Position numbers and translations under genes: made by a program. A DNA stretch of 7,462 bases from Candidatus Dormiibacterota bacterium (GTDB lineage: Bacteria; Chloroflexota; Dormibacteria; UBA8260), in NCBI GenBank assembly GCA_955652455.1, contig CATPBU010000203.1, positions 1-7,462 of the forward strand, read 5' to 3'. Below the pieces are notes generated by a model, which saw only the letters and a program-made list of their open reading frames with translations, was not told the DNA's origin and did no database searches. Shown in pieces: positions 2,373 to 7,462 of this stretch. Every line of letters starts with the position of its first letter. Positions within the stretch are counted from its first letter, which is position 1.

Positions 2373-3584
2373 GTGCACTGGCCGCGGGCGATCATCCACA
2401 TCGATCTTGACGCCTTCTATGCGTCGGTCGAGCAGCTGCGCCGGCCGGACTTGCGCGGCCGGCCGGTCATCGTCGGCGGCGGTGGTGACGACTACCGGCG
2501 CGGCGTGGTCAGCGCCGCCTCGTACGAAGCGCGGCGCTACGGCGTCCACTCCGCGATGCCGCTTGGCCGCGCCCGCCGTCTCTGCCCGCACGCGGTGGTG
2601 CTGCCCGTCGATTTCGTCGCCTACCGCGCCGCGTCCCGCCAGGTGTTCGCGATCGCGCGCGACTTCACGCCGCAGATCGAACCGGCGTCGCTGGACGAGG
2701 CCTACCTCGACGTCACCGGCTCGATCGCTCGGATGGGACAGCCGGATCAGCTCGCCAACGAGCTCCGCGACCGCGTCGCCGGGGAGTGCAGGCTCGACGT
2801 GTCGTGCGGGGTGGCCACGTGCAAGCTCGTCGCCAAGGTGGCGTCCGACTTGCGCAAGCCGCGAGGCTTCGTGGTGGTGCCGCCCGGCGATGAGGCCGCG
2901 TTCCTGGCGCCACTGCCGCTGCGCCGCCTGCCCGGGCTCGGGCCGGCGTCGGAGAAGGCGCTGTCAGGGTTGGGGTTGACCACGCTCGGCGACCTGGCAG
3001 CGTTTCCGCTGGAGGCGCTGCGCCGCCGCCTCGGCGAGCACGCCGCGGTGAGCCTGACCCAGCGCGCGCGCGGCATCGACCACAGCGAGGTGGTGCTCCC
3101 GACCCGGCCCAAGAGCGTGTCGCGCGAGGAGACGTTCTCGACCGACGTTTCCGACCGCAACGAGCTGCACCGCCGCCTGCGCGAGTGCGCCGCGGATGTC
3201 GGGCGCCAGCTGCGCCGCGGTGGATGGACGGCGAAAACCGCCACGCTCAAGCTTCGCTACTCCGACTTCACCACGCTGACCCGCCAGCTCACCTGGCTCA
3301 GCCCGCAACACGGCGACACGGTGCTGGCCGAGGCGGCCCTCCATCTCTTCGACGGCACCTGGGCCGGCACGCCGGTTCGGCTGCTTGGAATGGGAGTCAG
3401 CGGCATCATCGACGCGGCTCAGCTCGACCTCTTCGAGACCGTCGGCTCGCCGCGCGACGAGCAGCTCGACCAGACCCTCGACGTGCTCCGCGACCGCTTC
3501 GGCAACGCCGCGCCGCACCGTGGTGCCAAGCCGGCATTGCGCGACCTCGACTTCCGTGGCGAGGACCTGCGCGACGGCGAGTGA
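2373..3584 (+). CDS. dinB: DNA polymerase IV (Y-family translesion polymerase)
   Basis: A 403-residue Y-family polymerase that copies past damaged template bases at low fidelity. The metal-binding residues are Asp11 in IIHIDLDAFYASVEQ and Asp108-Glu109 in ASLDEAYLDV. Tyr16, aligned with the E. coli DinB steric-gate Phe13, should exclude ribonucleotides. The fingers segment contains SAASYEARRYGVHSAMP (47-63). A helix-hairpin-helix follows at about 185-210 (RLPGLGPASEKALSGLGL). The little finger spans about 245-345 and begins KSVSREETFS. QLDLF at 350-354 is a clear sliding-clamp binding motif, followed by about 50 extra residues, as in mycobacterial-type DinB. All catalytic parts are present and the length is normal for actinobacteria. 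The GTG start gives the exact N-terminal context expected of the family; no ribosome-binding site precedes it (see the -10 box at 2361). It ends 7 bp before the convergent small membrane gene. Confidence 0.96.
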   Translation: MHWPRAIIHIDLDAFYASVEQLRRPDLRGRPVIVGGGGDDYRRGVVSAASYEARRYGVHSAMPLGRARRLCPHAVVLPVDFVAYRAASRQVFAIARDFTPQIEPASLDEAYLDVTGSIARMGQPDQLANELRDRVAGECRLDVSCGVATCKLVAKVASDLRKPRGFVVVPPGDEAAFLAPLPLRRLPGLGPASEKALSGLGLTTLGDLAAFPLEALRRRLGEHAAVSLTQRARGIDHSEVVLPTRPKSVSREETFSTDVSDRNELHRRLRECAADVGRQLRRGGWTAKTATLKLRYSDFTTLTRQLTWLSPQHGDTVLAEAALHLFDGTWAGTPVRLLGMGVSGIIDAAQLDLFETVGSPRDEQLDQTLDVLRDRFGNAAPHRGAKPALRDLDFRGEDLRDGE

Positions 3585-3591
3585 CCTGTCG

Positions 3592-3858
3592 TCATACGTG
3601 AAGGAACGACTTCACGAGCTGGATGACGAGGACGGCTCCCCCGCCCTTGACGAGCATGTCGACGAGGAAGCCCGAGCTCGATTCTTGGTGCTGCATCACC
3701 TTGTGCAGGCTCGATAGAGCCACGCCGGCCGGGATCAGGTACTCGCCGGCGGTGAGCAGGGGGCTCGCAACGGTGTCCCAGACATGCAGGGTGTCGCGGT
3801 TCGGATCGACCTGGATGTCGGCGACGAGGTGGGCGAGCACGGTGGCCACGAGCAGCAT
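3592..3858 (-). CDS. Small membrane protein, probable conjugation-system subunit (pilin-like/DUF6112-like)
   Basis: An 88-residue protein with a hydrophobic N-terminus (MLLVATVLAHLVADIQV), a second apolar stretch at about 31-50 (ASPLLTAGEYLIPAGVALSS), a short polar loop with HKVMQHQESSS, and a third apolar stretch at about 63-86 containing KGGGAVLVIQLVKSF. Two or three membrane passes around a short polar loop are the layout of VirB2/TrbC pilins and of the small proteins that sit beside TrbL genes in actinobacterial conjugation loci. The similarity is architectural; I cannot prove homology. Support for a real gene: an ATG with a strong Shine-Dalgarno (AGGGAGAA, 3865-3872), membrane-protein composition, and close convergence with dinB. 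It points away from the TrbL gene, whereas such partners usually lie in one operon. It could instead be an unrelated small membrane protein. Confidence 0.65.
   Translation of the reverse strand: MLLVATVLAHLVADIQVDPNRDTLHVWDTVASPLLTAGEYLIPAGVALSSLHKVMQHQESSSGFLVDMLVKGGGAVLVIQLVKSFLHV
3597..3616. repeat. 7-bp inverted repeat at the dinB/small-membrane-gene junction
   Basis: CGTGAAG (3597-3603) and CTTCACG (3610-3616) pair perfectly around a 6-base loop, just 12 bp past the dinB stop and inside the last codons of the - strand gene. Its place between two convergent genes suggests a bidirectional transcription stop for dinB, but there is no T-run on either side, and the dyad may simply reflect coding sequence (Val-Lys-Ser-Phe-Leu-His-Val). 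Confidence 0.3.
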
Positions 3859-3872: not shown

Positions 3873-3903
3873 GGTTGTCGGACGGTGCAACTCAGGCGGC
3901 CAC

Positions 3904-3976
3904 TGTCTGCGCTGACAGCGGACAGACCGAGGACAAACGATGTCCGCGGGGTGTCCCCGAACACGGCACAGTGTCC
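3904..3976. promoter_or_regulatory. Cluster of phased GGACA/TGTCC half-sites, putative operator
   Basis: Seven TGTC or GACA tetramers occur in 73 bp. GGACA starts at 3920 and 3931; TGTCC starts at 3941, 3952 and 3972. Steps are 11, 10, 11 and 20 bp, about one helical turn or two, so the sites lie on one face of the DNA. Nested dyads include GCGGACA (3918-3924) with TGTCCGC (3941-3947), perfect over 7 bp; GGACA-N5-TGTCC (3931-3945); and TGTC-TGCGCT-GACA (3904-3917). The cluster starts 45 bp upstream of the small membrane gene's ATG. This arrangement is typical of cooperative binding by a dimeric regulator; iterons or a relaxosome binding site are alternatives. Confidence 0.5.
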
Positions 3977-4201
3977 GCGACGTGCCGGACTTGATCGTCA
4001 GGGAGTTGCGCCTGCGCCCGTTCACCGACACCGCCACGGCGCCGATTCATCCGAGTGCGAAGAGCACCGCTGAGACGCCGGGCGCGCCGTCCGCTTCGGA
4101 GGCTCTGGCCAGACTTTCGGCGCGGCATTCACGGCGGCGCGCGGTCGACGAACGCGAACTGTGACCAGGAATTTGTCCGCCCTCAGTCCGCAACTCACGG
4201 C

Positions 4202-4207
4202 TAGCTT
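4202..4207 (+). promoter_or_regulatory. Possible -10 box TAGCTT for the TrbL/VirB4 operon
   Basis: TAGCTT fits the actinobacterial TANNNT pattern and would place the transcript start near 4214, about 30 bases before the GTG at 4243. The best -35-like sequence, TTGTCC at 4173-4178, is 23 bp away, too far for a normal sigma-70 promoter. It is a weak call made mainly on position. Confidence 0.25.
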
Positions 4208-4242
4208 GTGCGCATGCCTGTCACCGCCGCACCTGGAGATGC

Positions 4243-5889
4243 GTGTCAGTGCTGACATTCGCGTCGCCGTTCACCTTCCAGGAGCATATGGTTCTCGATG
4301 CATGCGGCGTGTTCGGCTTCGGGCTGGACGGCCTCTGCAACTTTGTCAGCGGTGCGGCCGATTGGTTCAGCCAAACGCTCGAGGTGATCCAGAACCCTTT
4401 CAAATGGCTGTATCACCACACACTCGGCGCACCCATCCCGCAGCACGCAGGTGACCCTGGCTGGGACGCGTGCCAGGCGGATTGGAGCCAGCCGTCATGT
4501 CCGAAACTCGTCGACGAGCTGAAGCCGGCCAGCCTGACCCTGTCGGGCACCTGGCCGCGTCTCTACAGCTCATTGTCGGTGTCGGGCGTCTTCATCGCTG
4601 CGACGTGCTGCGTGGTCCGGGTGGTGCGTGGGGTGTTCGACGAGCGTGTGGTGGGCGCGCACCTGGTAATCGACAACGTCGTACGCATGGTGGTCGCCAC
4701 CGGCGTGCTGGTCGTGCCGACACCAGACAACTCGCTGCTCCTCAACGCCCTGCGGCTCAGCGCCGTGGCGTCCGGTCGCATCGCCGAGGCCGGCGCCGGT
4801 GCCGTCTCCGCCGCGTTCACAGCCAACCTCGATCTCGGCACCGTGGTGGGCAACATCGCAGCCACAGGCTTCGGGCTTGCCGGTATCGGAGATTTCCTGG
4901 TGGCGATCCCGATCCTCCTGGTCGCGGCAGCCTTCATCTATGTGATGGCGCTGTATCTACTGCGCGTCATCCAACTGGTCTTCGCCGTGGCCACCGCACC
5001 ACTCTTCGTGGCCTTGGCCGTGTACGACCCTCGCAATCGGTTCCTGCAGTGGTGGCTCGACCTCTTTGCCTCGGCGATGCTGCTGCCCATCGTGCTGGCG
5101 ATCTGCGGTTCGCTGACGGCAGGAGTCGCCATCTTCTTCCTCAACGGCAACCAAGATCTCCTATCGCCGGGCGGCGGCGCGGAATCTGTGACGCGCACGT
5201 TGCTGGCCTGCTTTGCGGTGCTCGGCGGCGTGTGGATGACCGGCAAGGCGGTGCATGGCCTTGCGTGGCGAGGATTCAGCCACGGCGGTATCAGCGGGGC
5301 GGCGACCGCCGTCTCAACTGCGATCATGGCACTCCCCAACGCAGCTGGTGATGTCGCTTCGCTGATGAGAGTCGGCGGCCGCCCACCCCGGCCGGGAGGC
5401 CTTCTCGAGACCCTCGGACGCCCCGGGGCGCGCCGCGGCGCCACGCCGCCGGGTCCGATGCGCGTGGCGGAGACGGGATCTGTCGTCGCCGCGGCGGCGG
5501 CCGGGCACGCCGCTGCTGTGTTCGGCGAGAGCCGGGAGGTCGACGCGGCCATGGAGGCAGCCGACGGCGCGGACTTCAGCCGTCACGGGTCGGCGGCGTG
5601 CGTTCTCGAACAGCCCGCGATGAGAGCAGCCTTCAACCAGGCCGTCGGCGCGTCCATCGGCCGATTCGCGACTACTGAGGAGGGCCGACTCGTGGTGGCG
5701 GAGTCGACGATGCACCTCGACGCCGCACGGGTCGACCCTGCGATGAGGGTTGCCGAGTACACCAGGGTGCTGGCTGAAGACCCGCGCGCTGGGAACGCGG
5801 TCGCCGGCGCGGCACTCGCCAGTCTGCTCCACAACCATCTCCCGGACCTCACCCCGATCCTGCGCAACCGTGCGGCGACGACGTCGTGA
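4243..5889 (+). CDS. TrbL/VirB6-like conjugal transfer membrane protein
   Basis: A 548-residue polytopic protein. An N-terminal region of about 105 residues carries four Cys (21, 32, 77, 86) and the segment SGAADWFSQTLEVIQ. It is followed by apolar segments at about 109-128, 143-160, 200-217, 218-240, 241-260, 273-300 and 315-335. The pair AAAFIYVMALYLLRVIQLVFA and TAPLFVALAVYDPRNRFLQWW is the conserved core seen in TrbL/VirB6 channel subunits of type IV secretion systems. The tail (about 345-548) is soluble, Ala/Gly/Pro-rich, and probably cytoplasmic. Its role would be to form part of the inner-membrane channel through which DNA-protein substrate passes. The start is uncertain: GTG 4243 (GGAG only 4 bases away), GTG 4249 (10 bases) and ATG 4288 (AGGAG 3 bases before) are all in frame. 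Homologues often begin close before the first Cys, which favours the later start. It overlaps the next gene by GTGA. Confidence 0.8.
   Translation: MSVLTFASPFTFQEHMVLDACGVFGFGLDGLCNFVSGAADWFSQTLEVIQNPFKWLYHHTLGAPIPQHAGDPGWDACQADWSQPSCPKLVDELKPASLTLSGTWPRLYSSLSVSGVFIAATCCVVRVVRGVFDERVVGAHLVIDNVVRMVVATGVLVVPTPDNSLLLNALRLSAVASGRIAEAGAGAVSAAFTANLDLGTVVGNIAATGFGLAGIGDFLVAIPILLVAAAFIYVMALYLLRVIQLVFAVATAPLFVALAVYDPRNRFLQWWLDLFASAMLLPIVLAICGSLTAGVAIFFLNGNQDLLSPGGGAESVTRTLLACFAVLGGVWMTGKAVHGLAWRGFSHGGISGAATAVSTAIMALPNAAGDVASLMRVGGRPPRPGGLLETLGRPGARRGATPPGPMRVAETGSVVAAAAAGHAAAVFGESREVDAAMEAADGADFSRHGSAACVLEQPAMRAAFNQAVGASIGRFATTEEGRLVVAESTMHLDAARVDPAMRVAEYTRVLAEDPRAGNAVAGAALASLLHNHLPDLTPILRNRAATTS
4244..4257. 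promoter_or_regulatory. 14-bp dyad TGTCAG-TG-CTGACA over the TrbL start codon
   Basis: Six-base arms match perfectly around a TG centre. The site matches the one at 3904-3917 at 12 of 14 positions (both TGTC-N6-GACA, ending GCTGACA). One copy stands upstream of the - strand gene and the other covers the first codons of the + strand gene, so one protein could bind both and control the two genes together. It lies about 30 bp downstream of the possible transcript start, where a bound repressor could block elongation or initiation. Confidence 0.4.
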
Positions 5890-7462
5890 GGGCCGGGGGC
5901 GGGGCCATCCGCGTTCCGCTCGCCGTCGATGCGCAGTTCCGGCTACCCGTCGGGCCGATGTTGCTCCCCGTGCGGTCGCTGGTTCTGGCGGCTTTTGCCG
6001 GCCCGATCGCGTACGCGCTGCTTGCCCTCGGGCTGCCTGGGCTGTGGGGCGCGGCCAGCGCCGGCTTCCTGCTGGCGGTGGCCGCCTCACTTGGCTTGCC
6101 GGAGCGGCAGGGTGTGTGGATCGGTACCCACATCGCCTATGGGCAGGCGTGGCGGGTGATGCCTTCGACGGTCACTCGCGGACGGGCGGGACGCGCCCGT
6201 GTCCGCGACCTGCGGGGCGCCGTCCGTGTCTCCGGCGAACGACCCACCATCCGCCCGTCGAAGTTGCTTCCTCGCCGCTTCACCACCTTCTTGACCGTAC
6301 CGACGACCTCGACGGACGCGCACGGAATCTTGCGCCTCGATCCTGGTGGTGGCCGCGCCGTGCTCACGCTCGACGGTCCTGCTGTCAGTGTCGCCGGCGA
6401 CGGGTACCTCGACTGGTGTCGCGCTGCGCTCCGCTGGATCGGTTCGCTGGACTGCCCGGCGCAGTTCATCACTCTGATGACCCACCACGACGCCCGCCGT
6501 GTCGGGGAGGCGTTCGATCACCGCGTCGCGGCCTGGCCGAGGACGCCGCTATGCGAGCTCGAGCGCGGGCTGGCAGGCACACTTGCCGAGACAACGCTCG
6601 GGCTGCGGCATTACGTCGTCCTTGCACCCGGTTCGGCGGGCGCCGACGGGATGCCGTACCGTTCGACTCCCTGGCGCGCAGGCGATGCGCGTGACGCAAC
6701 TCACGACCAGGCTGATCGCGCTCTCCAATCAGCCCTGCGGATGGCACCCGGGTTCGCCATCGACGTGCGCGCGGCCGACCGCGACGACATCGCTGCTCTG
6801 CTCGCACACACCGCGCTCGGGGCGTCGCGCGCAATGGTGGGGGAGAACGTGCTTCGCATCGGCGACCGGCATCACATGGTGCTGACGACGACGCAACTGC
6901 CCGCCGTCATCGAGGTGGGCGCCGTCGTCGAAGCCATGACCCGTGCTCACGCTTTCGGCGTGGCGAGCGTGCATCTCCTCCCCGTCAGCACGAGTGTCGC
7001 GCAGAAGTACCTGCACCGGCGTTCGTCGATGCTGGACTACATACACCGCCGGGGCGCCGATCCCGTCGAAGCCCAGGTCGCCCTGCAGGAAACCACGGAC
7101 GTGGTCGCGGCCCTGGCCCAACGCGACATCGTTCCGTGGCGCGTTGCTCTCACGGTGTGCGTGGCGCACCGGGAGCGAGCCAGGGCATTCGAGGCTGCCG
7201 AACGACTCGGTGCCATGCTCGCGGCGCACGGCTTCCGCACGACAGAGGTGAGCGGGCCGGGCCTCCTGCCGGCGCTGGCGCTCTCGCCAGGATGCGCGCC
7301 GCTCGCTCGCAGCCTGGTCTTGACGTCCGACTCTGTCGCAGCGAGGATGCTGCCCTGCTTGGGCACGCCGTTCGCGGACGTGTCGGCACCGCTGTTGGGT
7401 ATCAATGTCCTCAACGGAACCCCGGCGTACTTCTCCATCTGGAGCCAGCCGAATCACAACCT
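5886..7462 (+). CDS. VirB3/PrgI-VirB4-like conjugation ATPase, N-terminal part (runs off the window)
   Basis: The frame opens with GTG at 5886, overlapping the TrbL stop (GTGA), and stays open for 525 codons to the window edge. The N-terminus has a short polar lead (IRVPLAVDAQFRLPVG), two membrane helices (about 32-50 and 53-71), then a basic region: the layout of VirB3/PrgI. The rest reads as the N-terminal domain of VirB4/TrbE-type ATPases. Its end is diagnostic: SLVLTSDSVAARMLPCLG (476-493), LLGINVLNGTP (504-514), then YFSIWSQPNHN. In VirB4 proteins this 'G.n..tGtp..fd.f..pNhN' stretch lies immediately before Walker A, which should fall just past position 7462. The protein would power assembly and substrate transfer of a type IV secretion system at the inner membrane. 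Fusion of VirB3- and VirB4-like parts is known in other systems. No nucleotide-binding motif is visible in the window, so the ATPase call is partly inference. Confidence 0.78.
   Translation, partial: MRAGGGAIRVPLAVDAQFRLPVGPMLLPVRSLVLAAFAGPIAYALLALGLPGLWGAASAGFLLAVAASLGLPERQGVWIGTHIAYGQAWRVMPSTVTRGRAGRARVRDLRGAVRVSGERPTIRPSKLLPRRFTTFLTVPTTSTDAHGILRLDPGGGRAVLTLDGPAVSVAGDGYLDWCRAALRWIGSLDCPAQFITLMTHHDARRVGEAFDHRVAAWPRTPLCELERGLAGTLAETTLGLRHYVVLAPGSAGADGMPYRSTPWRAGDARDATHDQADRALQSALRMAPGFAIDVRAADRDDIAALLAHTALGASRAMVGENVLRIGDRHHMVLTTTQLPAVIEVGAVVEAMTRAHAFGVASVHLLPVSTSVAQKYLHRRSSMLDYIHRRGADPVEAQVALQETTDVVAALAQRDIVPWRVALTVCVAHRERARAFEAAERLGAMLAAHGFRTTEVSGPGLLPALALSPGCAPLARSLVLTSDSVAARMLPCLGTPFADVSAPLLGINVLNGTPAYFSIWSQPNHN

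Follow-up and report, generated by a model that had tools for sequence, protein, structure and literature searches.

What is a cluster of short GGACA/TGTCC repeats doing between divergently oriented transfer genes? This question is raised by positions 3904 to 3976 of a 7,462-nucleotide stretch of DNA from Candidatus Dormiibacterota bacterium (contig CATPBU010000203.1), referred to here in its full length as the window. A first-pass annotation had described the cluster as a helically phased array with dyad symmetry, and had proposed it as the master operator of the transfer region or as a relaxosome/oriT binding array. The array consists of two back-to-back direct-repeat boxes, TGTCC-N6-TGTCC with an 11-bp period, one for each divergent promoter, and is not a single palindromic operator. 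Together with a third box, these very likely represent a conserved promoter element of a tandem-repeat type that is found in part of the class. Our overall explanation, to which we assign a probability of about 0.6, is that these are activator boxes for divergent type IV secretion system (T4SS)/transfer promoters, that they belong to a scattered regulon, and that they are read by a tandem dimer of the OmpR/PhoB type for which a protein family named here L244 is the candidate.

The array as two probable divergent promoter boxes

The promoter elements and the open reading frames (ORFs) that they precede are the following:

3592 to 3858, minus strand: gene for an 88-aa small hydrophobic protein, VirB2-like by size and position only
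3902 to 3907, minus strand: -10-like GACAGT, N12 after box 1, with a predicted transcription start at about 3895
3920 to 3935, minus strand: box 1, TGTCC-N6-TGTCC (half-sites 3931-3935 and 3920-3924), putative promoter of the 88-aa gene
3941 to 3956, plus strand: box 2, TGTCC-N6-TGTCC, putative promoter of a conserved small ORF
3969 to 3974, plus strand: -10-like CAGTGT, N12 after box 2
3982 to 4164, plus strand: conserved 60-aa ORF (V.[DE][LV]IVRELRLR...), with its GTG 41 bp after the start of the box
4174 to 4189, plus strand: box 3, TGTCC-N6-AGTCC, preceding the TrbL/VirB6-like gene
4202 to 4207, plus strand: -10 TAGCTT, N12 after box 3
4214 to 4255, plus strand: 13-aa leader ORF (MPVTAAPGDACQC), which if real would be leaderless, its ATG lying exactly 40 bp from the first T of box 3
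4249 to 5889, plus strand: TrbL/VirB6-like membrane protein of 546 aa (Pfam TrbL 20.4 bits, under the cut-off of 25.9)
5886 to 7460, plus strand: start of a VirB4-like ATPase gene; the encoded N-terminal part shares 77% identity over 519 aa with an L086 protein that has AAA_10 and TraG P-loop matches

All the repeats initially described are present: GGACA at 3920 and 3931, TGTCC at 3941, 3952 and 3972, seven TGTC/GACA tetramers within 3904-3976, the 7-bp dyad GCGGACA/TGTCCGC (3918-3924 with 3941-3947) and the nested GGACA-N5-TGTCC symmetry, in which the pair 3920/3952 on the outside and the pair 3931/3941 on the inside are both centred on 3938. The helical phasing is real as well, in the form of 11-bp direct repeats. 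The argument from density fared less well. In the 384-bp intergenic region neither the seven tetramers nor at least five GGACA/TGTCC per 73 bp was reached in any of 5000 dinucleotide shuffles, so that by this measure the cluster is rare. However, in 299 of 1000 shuffles some 5-mer (with its complement) occurs at least five times within 73 bp, and CGCGC (six copies) is denser than GGACA/TGTCC in the real region. Density alone thus proves little and was dropped as proof of the array. That the array is real follows instead from its conservation in three orthologous loci and from its genome-wide recurrence against a reversed-pattern control.

The three orthologous loci, L086 (Ca. Amunia), L087 (Ca. 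Aeolococcus) and L088 (a Dormibacteraeota bin), all contain the small ORF and the 88-aa gene divergent from TrbL. GGAC-N7-GGAC and GTCC-N7-GTCC are kept in the four loci, window included, with variation at the outer base of the half-sites (A/G, T/C), and so is the third pair before TrbL (4174/4185 in the window), with one core base changed in L087. The four loci agree in 23 of 30 half-site columns versus 34 of 142 other noncoding columns, a comparison for which the half-site positions were picked after inspection, four of the six half-sites coming from the first-pass annotation. The alignment that it had called for upholds the half-sites and the 11-bp spacing within each pair, whereas the fifth element, TGTCC at 3972, is not conserved and overlaps the -10-like CAGTGT, and the gap between the two boxes varies (N5, N5, N20 and N21), being 15-16 bp longer in L087 and L088. 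Because this gap varies while each 11-bp pair is kept, the unit is the tandem pair and not the dyad.

The -10-like sequences accompany the boxes. Each of the four loci retains box 1 and, at N12 from it, an xAnnnT. The counterparts of GACAGT are GAGAGT (L086), GAAGCT (L087) and CACAGT (L088); from the predicted start, the 88-aa gene would have a 37-nt leader. On the plus strand an earlier -10 assignment at N10 was replaced by CAGTGT at N12, and the 60-aa ORF is probably leaderless. The counterparts of the box 3 -10 are TAGCGT (L086), TAGCCT (L087) and TAGCGT at N13 (L088). The stop codon of the 13-aa leader ORF overlaps the TrbL start (GTGCTGA), and this ORF may couple TrbL translation; by eye, short ORFs lie at a similar place in L087 and L088, and none at that place in L086.

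A recurrent, probable promoter element

The box is not confined to this locus. TGTCC-N6-TGTCC-N12-TA occurs 19 times in genome G007, 28 times in G057, 22 times in G369, once each in G001 and G002 and not in G003, while the reversed control gives no match in any of the six. With up to two mismatches, G001, G002, G007, G057 and G369 are clearly above the control and G003 weakly so (5 vs 2). In the class of G001 the strict box is present in 22 of 110 genomes, with 96 matches (among which two G057 boxes are counted twice owing to a variable gap) versus 4 in the control. Among 400 phylum-wide genomes 9 contain a match, with 66 matches and 6 control matches; by hand count, 64 of the former and none of the latter fall in the 55 genomes that also belong to the class list. 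Beyond the class, the pattern is thus at background level (2 matches, 6 controls).

The anatomy of the element can be read directly from the sequences. In the window clade xAnnnT follows at N12 in 20 of 22 boxes and at N13 in the other 2, 10 of the 22 having been retrieved with a pattern that already included TAnnnT. Among 93 unique boxes T is found at -7 in 94% (a position absent from the query pattern) and G at position 6 in 90% (part of the search pattern for some of the boxes), and A (62%) and T (57%) prevail directly before the first half-site. TAnnnT lies at N12 in 84 of the 93, some of which were retrieved with N12 fixed and the others with any distance from N10 to N12. When 25 gaps between GTCC cores are compared, the 7-bp gap ranks first in 5 of 10 loci, shares first place in 3, comes second in L086 and does not stand out in L148. 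The boxes have no -35 hexamer, and the -10 stands at a near-fixed distance. Start codons are enriched at offset 40 (19 of 93 boxes vs 5.1 on average); those at offset 32 (25 of 93) are taken for a by-product of the -10 T. A box at -40 to -25, a -10 at -12 to -7 and a +1 at the start codon fit together, from which we infer leaderless starts. Activation, in turn, is suggested by the position of the box and the missing -35.

Genes downstream of the boxes

For each box the longest ORF within reach was chosen mechanically (97 in 93 loci, with 15 more loci), so that some are wrong frames, and 50 Pfam scans covered 49 different ORFs. Matches include the T4SS coupling protein/VirD4 (L149, L166), ClpP (L156, L160, L217) and Clp/AAA ATPases (L204, L221, L232), besides an M48 peptidase, HAD enzymes, a family 20 glycosyltransferase (trehalose-6-phosphate synthase type), GGDEF, PRPP synthase, adenosine deaminase and others; many targets have no family. 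Several are related between genomes by BLAST: the coupling proteins of G002 and G007 (61%), TrbL of the window and G007 (32%), the 88-aa protein of the window and a G369 protein (65% over 52 aa), the ATPase of G001 and those of G334, G406, G410, G411 and G415, ClpP in G007, G057, G369, G409 and G414, and the Clp ATPase in G007, G057 and G414.

Ten of 15 further window-clade loci fall into recurring families (coupling protein 2, ATPase 2, PVSFFD protein 3, L254 1, L244 family 2) and five do not (L255, L260, L266, L267, L268). These recurring families include T4SS genes and three unknown families; kinship among the G001, G002 and G003 targets (L243/L250, L249/L256, L248/L261/L245, and L254 with L169) rests on a comparison of N-terminal sequences by eye. 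The PVSFFD protein (161 aa in G001, PLATLPVSFFD...SALAVQH), whose G001 copy matches no Pfam family, has a box upstream in G001, G002 and G003 (L261, L248, L245). The box-driven coupling protein genes of G002 and G003 are located on contigs other than that of TrbL. The proposal of an operator of the transfer region was close to right, but the box serves a scattered regulon and not one locus. By eye, the box-downstream ORFs L190 (G306) and L195 (G374) resemble Flp/TadE-type pilin precursors.

A candidate regulator

Direct repeats of 11 bp (7-bp motif, 4-bp spacer) at a near-fixed place upstream of a -10 and without a -35 are the features of OmpR/PhoB-type tandem operators, and an OmpR-type tandem dimer probably binds the box. 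The closest parallel in geometry is the Pho box, described as units of 7 + 4 nt in the available text of PMC4415409. In E. coli phoA (NC_000913) we read TGTCA-N6-TGTCA-N11-TATAGT, likewise a pair of 11-bp direct repeats, each with TGTC at its core, directly before the -10. The present boxes differ from it in their half-site (TGTCCG), the N12 distance, the T4SS and Clp targets and a start codon that is often at the inferred +1, and the candidate regulator differs from PhoB-type proteins in lacking a phosphoacceptor. In BldC sites the repeats are also head-to-tail, and one optimized site happens to contain TGTCCG repeats; however, as far as the accessible part of that report goes, BldC reads AATT-N4-C, and by its letters the repeats of the optimized site are 9 bp apart (PMC5859096), whereas the present boxes are 11 bp apart and have no AATT between half-sites.

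The candidate is the L244 family, a new orphan family with 94 homologues found, no Pfam match and a model that combines a receiver-like and an OmpR-like winged-helix domain. The receiver fold is recognizable, and the end of beta 3 lacks the phosphoacceptor Asp, aligned position 91 being occupied by V in 29 rows and by I in the other 8 of 37. In the short C-terminal domain two clear helices separate the sheet from the hairpin, and the GlnR DNA-binding domain is among the matches. This layout recalls the atypical or orphan OmpR-type regulators GlnR and ChxR, the latter of which needs no phosphorylation according to the portion of PMC3960148 available, although these differ from the L244 family in the shortness of its C-terminal domain and in its lack of a Pfam match. 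In six genomes a gene of the family is located within 0-0.4 kb of a box, and in a seventh it lies 1.8 kb downstream of one; these are all the genomes in which the family was seen, in a sampling that favoured box loci. The adjacency is looser in three genomes, which slightly lowers our overall confidence. The L244 family is the best candidate that we have, and the chances that it binds the boxes appear evenly balanced. In G003 a candidate regulator gene (L262:655-1755) is broken by an in-frame stop and its box is kept.

In the proposed mechanism, the array would be a pair of back-to-back activator boxes that serve two divergent type IV secretion/transfer promoters and one site of a chromosome-wide regulon. 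The tandem repeat at -40 to -25, with its 7-bp half-site TGTCCGn and 4-bp spacer, would be bound by an OmpR/PhoB-type winged-helix protein as a head-to-tail dimer, possibly by the pseudo-receiver/winged-helix protein of the L244 family. The dimer would hold sigma region 4, substituting for the -35 element upstream of the xAnnnT -10, and transcription would often begin at the start codon. Beyond this, we tentatively suggest, as a possibility more doubtful than probable, that in Dormibacteria-type bacteria an orphan, phosphorylation-independent OmpR-like family turns on scattered T4SS and Clp proteolysis genes via leaderless, -35-less promoters, in a domesticated DNA-exchange or secretion (competence-like) state.

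The analysis as a whole places a previously unexplained repeat of a single window in a defined class of promoters, with a candidate activator, in an uncultured lineage. T4SS genes from separate places come together in one putative regulon, tied to Clp proteases, so that the purpose of this T4SS can be tested, and a receiver-like family without phosphoacceptor is added, with a likely DNA site that can now be tested. The ranked listings of a literature search brought up no paper that describes a comparable regulon in these bacteria, which is weak evidence of absence.

Alternative explanations

The OmpR-type boxes could instead be bound by a phosphorylated response regulator of the canonical kind that the host encodes, with the L244 family as no more than a target or neighbour. 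We regard this as possible and rather unlikely. Each of six genomes has 5-11 PF00486 matches, the tandem geometry suits the whole OmpR/PhoB family, and two paralogues with recognition helices like VDAHVYRLRRKIEP, presumably MtrA/RegX3-like, are common to G001, G007 and G057. However, comparing PF00486 places with the box places listed, by eye, we saw no PF00486 gene just downstream of a box and no autoregulated canonical response regulator, whereas L244-family genes are repeatedly close to boxes.

It is improbable that the boxes are stress promoters served by sigma adaptation through a WYL-type activator like PafBC. WYL-domain proteins are encoded in nine of ten genomes tested; in G001, G002, G003, G007, G057 and G369 the match falls within an open frame of 329-398 aa (with weaker extras in G001 and G002). 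Clp targets such as ClpP suit stress, and both SARP and PafBC serve promoters with a poor -35 in the available description (PMC10936776). Nevertheless, the tenth genome, G414, although a draft of 1.5 Mb, has five boxes and no WYL match; no DNA-repair gene was named by Pfam in the scans of box-downstream ORFs; and the accessible text on the PafBC motif terms it non-palindromic and mentions no tandem repeat (PMC6789036).

The near-fixed distance to the -10 and the missing -35 hexamer would also suit a core element that an alternative sigma factor recognizes on its own, with no activator involved. Against this highly improbable reading count the TAnnnT -10, which is of the housekeeping type, and the two like half-sites 11 bp apart, which point to a tandem dimer, all known OmpR/PhoB sites being direct repeats as stated in the part of PMC4832192 available.

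There is very little chance that the array is a symmetric operator to which a dimeric repressor binds, the 89-aa XRE protein for example, even though the window has a perfect 7-bp dyad and nested symmetry about 3938 and L086 has the identical four half-sites. Nothing linking the XRE protein to the array came up, although no test aimed at such a link was made. The variable gap between the boxes argues against a dyad operator; the genome-wide form is a single tandem pair, and the inverted four-half-site array, with up to two mismatches, is no commoner than its reversed control (17 of 110 genomes each) and exact only in G001. Such dyads can stand alone: of the 85 viral stretches that a scan for the inverted pattern yielded, four with overlapping matches were examined (L009:5897, L025:10794, L044:800, L073:299), and they carry the exact array with the same spacing, almost perfectly palindromic in L009 and L025, without the xAnnnT at N12 on both sides that pairs with the host boxes. 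These are perhaps an unrelated phage operator.

A SARP activator is scarcely credible: the afs box of AfsR, which acts by sigma adaptation, has two 11-bp direct repeats centred at -29.5, an upstream repeat at -40 to -30 that coincides with the position inferred here and a suboptimal -10 CACTGT, as given in the text available (PMC10936776), but G039 and the three box-richest genomes (G007, G057, G369) have no BTAD match, which rules it out unless the draft genomes miss the gene. The relaxosome/oriT reading can be dismissed, as the array does lie among transfer genes but its box recurs before many unlinked genes with a -10 at a near-fixed distance and is no single site of a transfer locus.

Genomic context

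Further genes of the window are:

2373 to 3584: DNA polymerase IV (dinB)
elsewhere in the window: a HAD hydrolase, an alcohol dehydrogenase and the 89-aa protein (sub-threshold helix-turn-helix match)

In L086, the one relative annotated, the TrbL-VirB4 cluster sits between dinB and an acetyl-CoA synthetase-like gene, and the transfer-gene cluster therefore looks chromosomal and not mobile. Relatives of TrbL were found at three loci in genome contigs and, mostly as distant matches, in 8 of the 400 phylum and 12 of the 110 class genomes, with none in viral contigs or in the plasmids searched. The 88-aa protein has no Pfam or NCBIfam match, and relatives of its gene occur in 15 of the 110 class genomes. 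Among 55 relatives of the TrbL protein, the close ones that bear names are mostly from Candidatus Dormibacteraeota or Dormibacteria, and dinB adjoins the T4SS cluster both in the window and in L086.
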